From assembly GCA_023663085.1 (NCBI GenBank), contig JAMPIB010000017.1:1-57878 (forward strand): a stretch of DNA of 57,878 nucleotides, written 5' to 3'. The stretch's first letter is position 1, and every line of letters starts with the position of its first letter. A program made the translations under genes and the position numbers. The notes under the pieces were generated by a model. The model was not told where the DNA came from. It made no database searches and worked only from the letters and a program-made list of their open reading frames with translations. Positions 1,356 to 3,136 of the stretch are shown here, piece by piece. This DNA is from Ruminococcus sp. Lineage in GTDB: Bacteria > Bacillota > Clostridia > Lachnospirales > Lachnospiraceae.

Positions 1356-1383
1356 ATGCAACATTATGTATAAAATGTTGCAT
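1356..1383. repeat. Left crossover site of the cassette
   Basis: Arms ATGCAACATT and AATGTTGCAT form a perfect 10-bp inverted repeat around the spacer ATGTATAA. On the csrA-facing strand it is followed by GC-containing sequence with no T-tract, so it should not terminate transcription heading to csrA. Confidence 0.75.
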
Positions 1384-1404
1384 TCCGCACCAGTTGTTGT
1401 TTAT

Positions 1405-1434
1405 CTTATATTATTACACTTTATAGGATGTAAA
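1405..1434 (-). promoter_or_regulatory. Weak candidate csrA promoter in the present orientation
   Basis: On the minus strand TTTACA (1429-1434) and TATAAG (1405-1410) are separated by 18 bp and face csrA from inside the cassette. The match to a sigma-A promoter is moderate. If real, csrA would be weakly expressed in this orientation and this element would be carried away by inversion. Confidence 0.3.
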
Positions 1435-1460
1435 ATAACCAAACAGAATGGAGGAAAATC

Positions 1461-2042
1461 ATGAGTATCACATATCCAATCAAAAACAAAGAAACACTGA
1501 ACAAATTTAAAGACTATTATAAAGATGTAAAACCCGATCCCCGCAACTACACCATGATCATCATGGGGCTCAACACGGCGTTCCGGATCGGGGATTTATT
1601 ACAGATTAAATGGCAGGATGTCGTCGATATCAGTCAGAAAAAATTTCATACTCACATCGCCATGACAGAACAGAAAACAGGAAAAAAGAGGATCGTCGCC
1701 GTCAATACGACCGAACAGCAAGCTCTGTCTTATTACCTTGAGACTCATACTTCCGCAGAACCCGCCGATTATCTTTTTCAAAGCAAAAAATATAAGGGAA
1801 TGCCGCTTTCCCGATATCAGGCTTATCGCATCGTCAAAGAGGCCGCCCGCTACGTCGGTCTGGAAGAGAACATTGGCTGTCATTCCCTTAGAAAGACTTT
1901 TGGCTATCATGCGTGGCAGCAGGGCACATCGCCGGTCATGTTGATGAACCTTTATAATCACTCATCTTATCAGACTACCAAGCACTATCTGGGAATCGAG
2001 CAGGAGGAAAAAGACAATGTTTATCTTCATATTGAATTATGA
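1461..2042 (+). CDS. Small tyrosine recombinase (Fim/Xer-like DNA invertase)
   Basis: Site-specific recombinase of 193 residues, the size of FimB/FimE-type invertases, with no N-terminal core-binding domain of the long phage integrases. Catalytic residues are visible in order: Arg42 in TAFRIGDLL, a beta-hairpin Lys near 72-76, His141-x-x-Arg144 in CHSLRKTFGYH, His167 in YNHSS, and the nucleophile Tyr176 in KHYLGI. GGAGG precedes the ATG. The gene lies between two inverted crossover-like sites and points away from csrA. No other phage or transposon genes flank it, so its natural substrate is most likely its own flanking sites. Which orientation is commoner in a population cannot be told from one assembly. 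Confidence 0.9.
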   Translation: MSITYPIKNKETLNKFKDYYKDVKPDPRNYTMIIMGLNTAFRIGDLLQIKWQDVVDISQKKFHTHIAMTEQKTGKKRIVAVNTTEQQALSYYLETHTSAEPADYLFQSKKYKGMPLSRYQAYRIVKEAARYVGLEENIGCHSLRKTFGYHAWQQGTSPVMLMNLYNHSSYQTTKHYLGIEQEEKDNVYLHIEL

Positions 2043-2097
2043 GGAATCATGGCTGAAATGCTATTTAAAAATTTTTAAAAAAAATTTTATCTGGCTA

Positions 2098-2124
2098 TAA
2101 AGTATTTAAGAATGAATCCGATAT
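2098..2124 (+). promoter_or_regulatory. Flagellar sigma-28 (SigD/FliA-type) promoter inside the cassette
   Basis: TAAA at 2098-2101, then 15 bases, then TCCGATAT ending at 2124. The B. subtilis SigD consensus is TAAA-N15-GCCGATAT, so only one base of the core differs. The E. coli FliA form, TAAAGTTT-N11-GCCGATAA, fits almost as well (TAAAGTAT-N11-TCCGATAT). The predicted start is near 2131, a few bases before the right crossover site. The promoter points right, away from csrA; inversion would place it about 90 bases upstream of the csrA start codon, pointing at csrA. Confidence 0.65.
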
Positions 2125-2143
2125 ATAAAGTGTAACAGATAAG

Positions 2144-2171
2144 ATGCAACATTTTATACATAATGTTGTAT
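2144..2171 (+). repeat. Right crossover site, also a terminator-like hairpin
   Basis: Arms ATGCAACATT and AATGTTGTAT around spacer TTATACAT; reverse complement of the left site except one C-to-T change, which still allows a G-U pair in RNA. With the flanking AAG/CTT the stem extends to 13 pairs on the plus strand and is followed directly by CTTTATTTTTTTATT. Transcripts from the recombinase or from the sigma-28 promoter would meet an intrinsic-terminator-like structure here. The T-tract lies outside the cassette and would not move with it. The stem is AT-rich, so efficiency is uncertain. Confidence 0.65.
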
Positions 2172-2340: not shown

Positions 2341-2823
2341 ATGACAGATCGTGATGAAAAATATATGAAAGAAGCTATCAGGCAGGCCAAAAAAGCCTAC
2401 GCGCTCGGAGAAGTCCCGATAGGCTGTGTTATCGTCTATGAGGATAAGATCATCGGAAGGGGCTATAACAGACGTAATACCGATAAGAATACACTCGCCC
2501 ATGCAGAGATAACTGCCATTAATAAAGCAAGTAAAAAAATGGGCGACTGGCGACTGGAAGGCTGTACTCTCTATGTGACGTTAGAACCCTGCCAGATGTG
2601 CGCGGGCGCCATCGTGCAGGCCCGCATTACCGAAGTGGTCATGGGCAGCATGAATCCCAAGGCAGGATGCGGCGGTTCTATCCTCAATATTCTGGAAATG
2701 CCGCAGTTCAACCATCAGGTCATTGTCCGAAGAGGCGTGTTGGAAGAAACCTGTTCCTCTCTGTTGACAACCTTTTTCAAAGAACTGCGGATACGCAAAA
2801 AAGTCGAGTTGACAAATAATTAA
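2341..2823 (+). CDS. tadA: tRNA-specific adenosine deaminase
   Basis: Cytoplasmic zinc deaminase that converts A34 to inosine in the tRNA-Arg(ACG) anticodon, needed to read CGU/CGC/CGA. The 160-residue length fits TadA. The deaminase motif is complete: HAE at residues 54-56 and PCQMC at 83-87, the zinc-binding and catalytic residues. AAAGGGG precedes the ATG. It is followed at once by the SRP RNA, whose -35 box lies within the last codons of tadA; this tadA-ffs arrangement is common in Firmicutes. Confidence 0.96.
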   Translation: MTDRDEKYMKEAIRQAKKAYALGEVPIGCVIVYEDKIIGRGYNRRNTDKNTLAHAEITAINKASKKMGDWRLEGCTLYVTLEPCQMCAGAIVQARITEVVMGSMNPKAGCGGSILNILEMPQFNHQVIVRRGVLEETCSSLLTTFFKELRIRKKVELTNN

Positions 2824-2837
2824 AAAAACAGTATACT
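2809..2837 (+). promoter_or_regulatory. Consensus sigma-A promoter of the SRP RNA
   Basis: TTGACA (2809-2814), a 17-bp spacer and TATACT (2832-2837), near-perfect consensus. Predicted transcription start around 2844. The -35 overlaps the 3' end of tadA. Confidence 0.9.
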
Positions 2838-2843
2838 TATAAA

Positions 2844-3110
2844 ACCGTGCAGCCGGGGCGTTAGCGGTGCCCTGTACCTACAATCCGCTCTAGTAGGGGT
2901 GATGCCTGATTGAGGGCTTTTTCCTGTGTAGCTGCCCTTTATAAGTGGCGTTGAAGTTCGGGTCTTGCGCAATGGGAATCCATGAACCGTGTCAGGGTGG
3001 GAACACAGCAGCACTAAGTGGAAGCTTCCATGTGCCGTAAGGGTGCCTGGCGGAGTTAACTGTAAAGGTAACGTGCATGGGGCATGTTCAAGAGATGGCG
3101 CACGGTTTTG
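2844..3110 (+). ncRNA. ffs: Signal recognition particle RNA, large (Gram-positive) type
   Basis: RNA component of SRP that binds Ffh and targets membrane proteins. Recognised from the Alu-domain sequence near the 5' end (GCCGGGGCGTTAGCGGTGCC, then CTGTACCT and AATCCGCTCTAG) and the S-domain core around 2990-3020 with the apical GGGAAC loop and AGCAGCACTAAG. The ends pair: AAACCGTGC at 2842-2850 with GCACGGTTT at 3100-3108, closing a molecule of about 265 nt as in Bacillus scRNA. A T-rich stretch after 3105 ends it. The exact 5' and 3' ends are estimated from the promoter and the closing helix. Confidence 0.93.
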
Positions 3111-3136
3111 CTTTTATATTCATTCTTATTTTTCTT

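Follow-up and report, generated by a model that had tools for sequence, protein, structure and literature searches.

The window, by which we mean the whole stretch of 57,878 nucleotides that was analysed, begins with a flagellin gene followed by a csrA paralogue and a putative invertible promoter cassette. The features are listed here by position.

1-902, - strand: flagellin with its C-terminal end missing (Pfam Flagellin_N 2e-39, Flagellin_C 2e-18), likely the second gene of the switched unit
1020-1307, - strand: divergent csrA paralogue of 95 aa (Pfam CsrA 8.6e-15), first gene of the proposed switched unit
1356-2171: putative invertible promoter cassette of ~0.8 kb, two inverted sites enclosing a recombinase and a promoter
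1356-1383, no strand assigned: proximal recombination site, with no T-run on the csrA side
1461-2042, + strand: tyrosine recombinase of 193 aa (Pfam Phage_integrase), essentially a catalytic domain alone by Pfam range
2098-2124, + strand: flagellar sigma-28/sigma-D type promoter by motif, TAAA-N16-CCGATAT, pointing away from csrA (OFF)
2141-2184, + strand: terminator-like hairpin formed by the distal site and a T-run (terminator call and RNA fold)
2144-2171, no strand assigned: distal recombination site

The initial annotation had described two inverted 28-bp sites, each a 10-8-10 palindrome, around a tyrosine recombinase with a full catalytic set, with csrA and then flagellin beyond the left site. 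We found this arrangement in place: the sites are 27/28 complementary, both have the 10-8-10 form, and the gene beyond csrA encodes both flagellin domains, truncated near the C-terminus because the contig starts at base 1. csrA does adjoin the left site, at a distance of 48 nt, one less than the 49 given there. That annotation listed neither the sigma-28 promoter within the cassette nor the terminator-like distal site. The two sites lie 760 nt apart. The 8-bp spacer of the left site reads ATGTATAA and is itself non-palindromic; therefore, the inverted orientation of the pair is real. Scanning the 3.4-Mb genome with the site pattern at up to 3 mismatches returned the window's pair, with 0 mismatches at one site and 1 at the other, as well as two further places with 3 mismatches each; the reversed-control pattern gave two matches per strand. 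The window's two sites are not a chance pair. Neither a flipped junction nor a flipped copy of the window's cassette was found in its own genome assembly.

The recombinase matched Pfam Phage_integrase (PF00589) above the cut-off, with an E-value of 1.9e-27 over residues 16-179 of 193. The catalytic set R-K-H-R-H-Y of the tyrosine recombinase superfamily is complete, and among 88 aligned relatives R42, K72, H141, R144 and H167 were conserved in 100% and Y176 in 99%. Phage_integrase was the sole Pfam match, with no serine recombinase domain of the kind that defines Hin. Both FimB/FimE models fell far short of their cut-offs (NCBIfam PRK09871, 47.7 bits against 222; PRK09870, 39.3 against 221). 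In the PDB sequence search the relevant matches were XerA, a XerC-like protein, an integrase and XerH. We set aside the many pentatricopeptide repeat matches in the same search, which trace to an N-terminal stretch of low score.

The sequence TAAAGTATTTAAGAATGAATCCGATAT (2098-2124, + strand), which stands between the recombinase gene and the distal site, matches the consensus of the flagellar sigma-28/sigma-D type perfectly. The stricter form of this motif occurred 15 times in the genome and its reversed control once; one of the strict matches stands fixed upstream of another flagellin, on contig C22. Of seven flagellin picks in the genome, C36, C11 and C22:129k proved wrong or empty and were left out. 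By motif, then, a flagellar promoter lies together with the recombinase gene inside the putative invertible segment, and in the window it faces the distal site, away from csrA. The distal site forms part of a hairpin of 13 pairs with a T-run after it, which is terminator-like (fold of -15.3 kcal/mol, z -4.75). When we inverted the segment in silico, the promoter came to lie 95 nt before the csrA start with both sites intact, and no T-run came after the hairpin. At threshold, no sigma-70-like promoter was detected ahead of the recombinase or csrA in the cassette, and positions 880-2345 held 2 sigma-70 matches against 5.2 expected.

The window's csrA falls below the NCBIfam csrA cut-offs. CsrA was matched four times in this genome: two copies, the window's among them, are divergent and stand beside cassettes, and another belongs to a canonical flgK-flgL-like-fliW-csrA operon. 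The CsrA of Bacillus subtilis is a translational repressor of flagellin. csrA beside flagellin is also an ordinary gene order in Bacilli and Clostridia, so the presence of csrA alone is weak evidence. The initial annotation had put csrA first among the targets and flagellin only as a possibility; going by the kind of promoter and by which neighbours are conserved, the unit under control would be csrA-flagellin. We dropped csrA as the sole target, because this is a flagellar type of promoter and csrA is followed by flagellin in most loci. The two genes are separated by a terminator-like hairpin (994-980, - strand), which makes their co-transcription unsure. The same genome carries a second complete cassette (G000:C22:60673-61251; L002, L178), also OFF, with its own csrA and a larger flagellin; its recombinase is 70% identical to that of the window, and its 9-bp spacer differs. 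Elsewhere in the window, positions 2820-3115, after tadA and before a GGDEF protein, resemble by eye a small structured RNA gene, such as that of the signal recognition particle RNA.

We collected relatives of the recombinase from four sources: the genome_contigs scan (18 loci), 61 relatives (27 matching, E 1e-30), 397 family genomes (30 matching, E 1e-40) and 77 genus genomes (39 matching, E 1e-50). The 114 recombinase places fetched gave 107 loci after removal of duplicates, the window included. A good inverted palindromic site pair surrounded the recombinase in 73 of the 107, and 70 of these lay beside csrA and/or flagellin. The initial annotation had counted loss of the sites in close relatives that keep the recombinase as evidence against a switch. 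No pair was found in 34 of the 107 loci, of which 24 are elsewhere and 10 are beside csrA or flagellin, where some are cut by a contig end, some have decayed or unequal-length sites, and one is the single locus in the opposite orientation described below.

In the 70 paired loci beside csrA or flagellin, the anatomy of the window recurred. The strict sigma-28 motif stood at the distal end, pointing out, in 65 and at the proximal end in none, with the reversed control motif appearing once at each end. The -35/-10 spacing was 16 in 64 of the 65 motifs, and the gap from motif to distal site was 14-25 nt (median 21). Near matches were in place by eye in four of the five remaining loci (L176, L090, L097 and L102), and none was seen in L101. 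With a T-run counted as 7 or more T among the 12 nt just outside a site, 67 distal sites and 1 proximal site had one (Wilcoxon p 3e-13, a nominal value since the rows are related). csrA or flagellin lay on the 5' side of the recombinase in 64 loci and on its 3' side in 6, five of these reversed-recombinase pairs belonging to one tree clade; 5 of the 6 carry the strict motif, and in 5/5 it points away from csrA. The anatomy is thus conserved by function and not by strand, and the window's cassette belongs to a conserved family. A genus-wide scan for motif plus site, independent of the recombinase, found 30 such places, spread over 26 of 60 genomes, and none with the control; the promoter pointed away from csrA in 30/30. 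Flagellins beside OFF cassettes lacked a sigma-28 motif of their own: over 72 loci, the stretch from recombinase to flagellin start held 2 motif matches toward flagellin, one in the ON locus L165 and a weaker CCGAAA in L176. On the distal side the nearest ORFs were diverse (63 ORFs in 37 clusters, the largest of 12 and 7, with 38 of the 63 oriented against the promoter), whereas on the proximal side a single cluster took in 57 of the 70 nearest ORFs. A promoter kept this strictly needs a target, and with distal neighbours diverse and proximal ones uniform, inversion is implied.

The spacers carry a further record. Strand exchange requires matching spacers, and the two spacers of a locus were identical in 54 of the 70 paired loci, with 45 distinct spacers overall; shuffling gave a mean of 3.66 and a maximum of 11 in 10,000 rounds. 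The two spacers of a locus thus evolve in a coupled manner. Outer half-sites matched within the pair in 10 of 70 loci against 5.5 when shuffled, which is little coupling, and inner half-sites did so in 47 of 70 against a shuffled mean of 19, which is some. This inner co-variation is unexplained by exchange within the spacer alone and counts against the explanation that we favour below. In all nine examined genomes with two or three paired cassettes, spacers differed between the cassettes, so that the cassettes would be kept from cross-recombining; such a difference is also expected by chance, given the many spacers in the pool.

By the strict motif, 69 of the 70 orientation-scorable loci were OFF and 1 was ON, a comparison across species and not within a strain. 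The 69 comprise 65 pairs plus L023, L047, L083 and L164; altogether 80 loci lay beside csrA or flagellin, 10 of them unscorable. The ON locus, L165 in genome G494, has the order recombinase, sigma-28 motif, site, csrA, flagellin, with the T-run at the other site. It belongs to a clade of 7 members (100/100 support) whose other 6 are OFF. Aligned with these six, its csrA-flagellin DNA is collinear on the same strand and its cassette is reversed; the breakpoints fall at the sites, and the T-run and the proximal outer half-site stay with their flanks. That proximal outer half-site is degenerate, as in the clade relatives. The recombinase of L165 is 77-85% identical to those of the six, and the ON case is a different species from its OFF relatives. 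The initial annotation had suggested comparing related genomes for both orientations, and G494 supplies the second one; a uniform orientation, which had been held to speak against a switch, is nearly what the other 69 of 70 loci present. The OFF bias is real, and it counts against a switch because free flipping would give a mixture. Most records, where titled, are metagenome assemblies, so the bias would follow if OFF prevails in the gut; an OFF-biased recombinase or slow switching would also produce it.

Several relatives depart from this layout. A related clade (L107, L110, L117, L119, L172, L173 and L174; 98/92 support), most members with their own inverted sites, sits in polysaccharide loci with NeuB, glycosyltransferases, CDP-glycerol transferase and epimerase, and possibly concerns phase-variable surface glycans. 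In L047 (about 1243-1411), L048, L050, L111, L113 and L120, small inverted repeats ~130-165 bp apart lie beside the recombinase and not around it. L047 is of another family; its small segment beside the recombinase holds a sigma-28 motif and adjoins csrA-flagellin, which is perhaps an older or alternative layout. L086, in the single-contig genome G441, has a recombinase and one site directly before flagellin, and no second site at up to 3 mismatches was found genome-wide; it is possibly a locked or decayed switch.

Taken together, these observations make it very probable that the locus is a Hin-like switch in which a tyrosine recombinase turns a sigma-28 promoter toward or away from a csrA-flagellin unit, the recombinase and promoter forming a self-contained invertible cassette. 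The recombinase encoded in the cassette would exchange strands within both 8-bp spacers, so that the 0.8-kb segment inverts. In the OFF state of the window, the promoter would fire outward, and the distal palindrome with its T-run would end the transcript. In the ON state, it would point across the proximal site, where no T-run follows, toward csrA and, beyond it, flagellin. Only some of the cells would then produce the flagellin of the locus, with its own CsrA copy, and they would do so only while sigma-28 is active. The anatomy, its conservation, the coupled evolution of the spacers and one natural ON relative are observed; from there we infer that inversion is the work of the window's recombinase, that the promoter at 2098-2124 is read by sigma-28 and that csrA and flagellin are co-transcribed. 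OFF is presumably the usual state.

A cassette that once inverted and now stays OFF in most lineages, the window's included, with the locus mostly silent, would account for 69 of 70 scorable loci being OFF, for the 34 of 107 loci lacking a detectable pair and for the degenerate proximal outer half-sites in the clade of the ON locus. We consider such a fossil or rarely moving switch improbable: catalytic residues remain 99-100% conserved across 88 relatives, the two spacers of a locus continue to change in step in 54 of 70 loci, and the promoter and terminator tail are maintained. The OFF bias, together with the well-formed distal hairpin and T-run, could mean that the promoter works as oriented, giving a sigma-28-dependent RNA of ~45 nt that ends at the distal site, with the recombinase serving something else. 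That is very improbable, as it accounts neither for sites that are inverted and share their spacers, nor for the flipped L165, nor for the lack of a sigma-28 motif before the flagellins of OFF loci.

We give scarcely any credence to a small mobile element, bounded by terminal inverted repeats and inserting beside flagellin in either orientation, without programmed switching. The cassettes do consist of a recombinase and terminal repeats with no other cargo gene, and single-gene cassettes with their own inverted sites also occur in polysaccharide loci. However, tyrosine recombinases excise between direct sites and not inverted ones, the end that carries the promoter lies away from csrA in nearly all cases, and in L165 the T-run and the proximal outer half remain with the flanks. 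A viral-contig scan for relatives gave 14 pattern matches, none of which was confirmed.

Returning to the promoter switch, the reading given in the initial annotation is largely supported, and its comparison with Hin is apt, as recombinase and promoter lie together between inverted sites by flagellin, and G494 presents the flipped state. Hin is a serine recombinase, whereas the enzyme here is a tyrosine recombinase; the system works like Hin and is not a Hin. It resembles the fim switch of E. coli in having a tyrosine invertase of catalytic-domain size that moves a promoter, and PRK09871 and PRK09870 were among the matches, although the scores lie far below those family cut-offs. The fim recombinases are encoded outside their invertible element, whereas here the gene is inside it. 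In Clostridioides difficile, RecV is likewise a tyrosine recombinase that inverts DNA controlling flagella; there the flg segment has no functional promoter, lies upstream of the early operon and acts through Rho on the flgB operon (PMC7446863). By contrast, the proposed target here is flagellin, and the segment is not promoterless, holding a sigma-28-type promoter and the recombinase gene. The Hin/hix cassette of Salmonella (fljBA) likewise encloses the recombinase gene and a flagellin promoter within inverted palindromic sites. By default it is oriented away from fljB, and the switched operon carries FljA, a post-transcriptional regulator that prevents fliC translation (PMC2652032). Both orientations occur there as here (69 OFF and 1 ON, across species). 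A csrA paralogue adjoins the cassette here, and the canonical fliW-csrA operon is elsewhere in the genome. Unlike in Salmonella, csrA precedes flagellin, the distal site doubles as a terminator-like hairpin, and several cassettes can occur per genome. In the open-access literature searched, we found no prior description of such a system.

By analogy, csrA is a candidate for the role of FljA, repressing other flagellins. The locus could then be a convergent H1/H2 counterpart in commensal Lachnospiraceae, in which the ON state makes a new flagellin together with a dedicated CsrA paralogue acting as translational repressor of the fixed flagellin or flagellins. We regard this extension as tentative and somewhat unlikely; were it true, cells would exchange filament antigens and not merely gain one, and genomes with two or three cassettes of differing spacers would run several independent flagellin switches. 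If the promoter switch itself is true, two unrelated recombinase classes have reached the same cassette design, and a recombination site would act as a terminator-like hairpin or as a leader hairpin depending on where it lies. Lachnospiraceae flagellins are prominent immune targets; one of them, CBir1, is described as the immunodominant antigen in colitic mice and in about half of Crohn's disease patients (PMC13353774). If such flagellins are phase-variable through a cassette recognisable from DNA alone, their ON and OFF states would be scorable by counting junction reads in metagenomes, isolates and patients.
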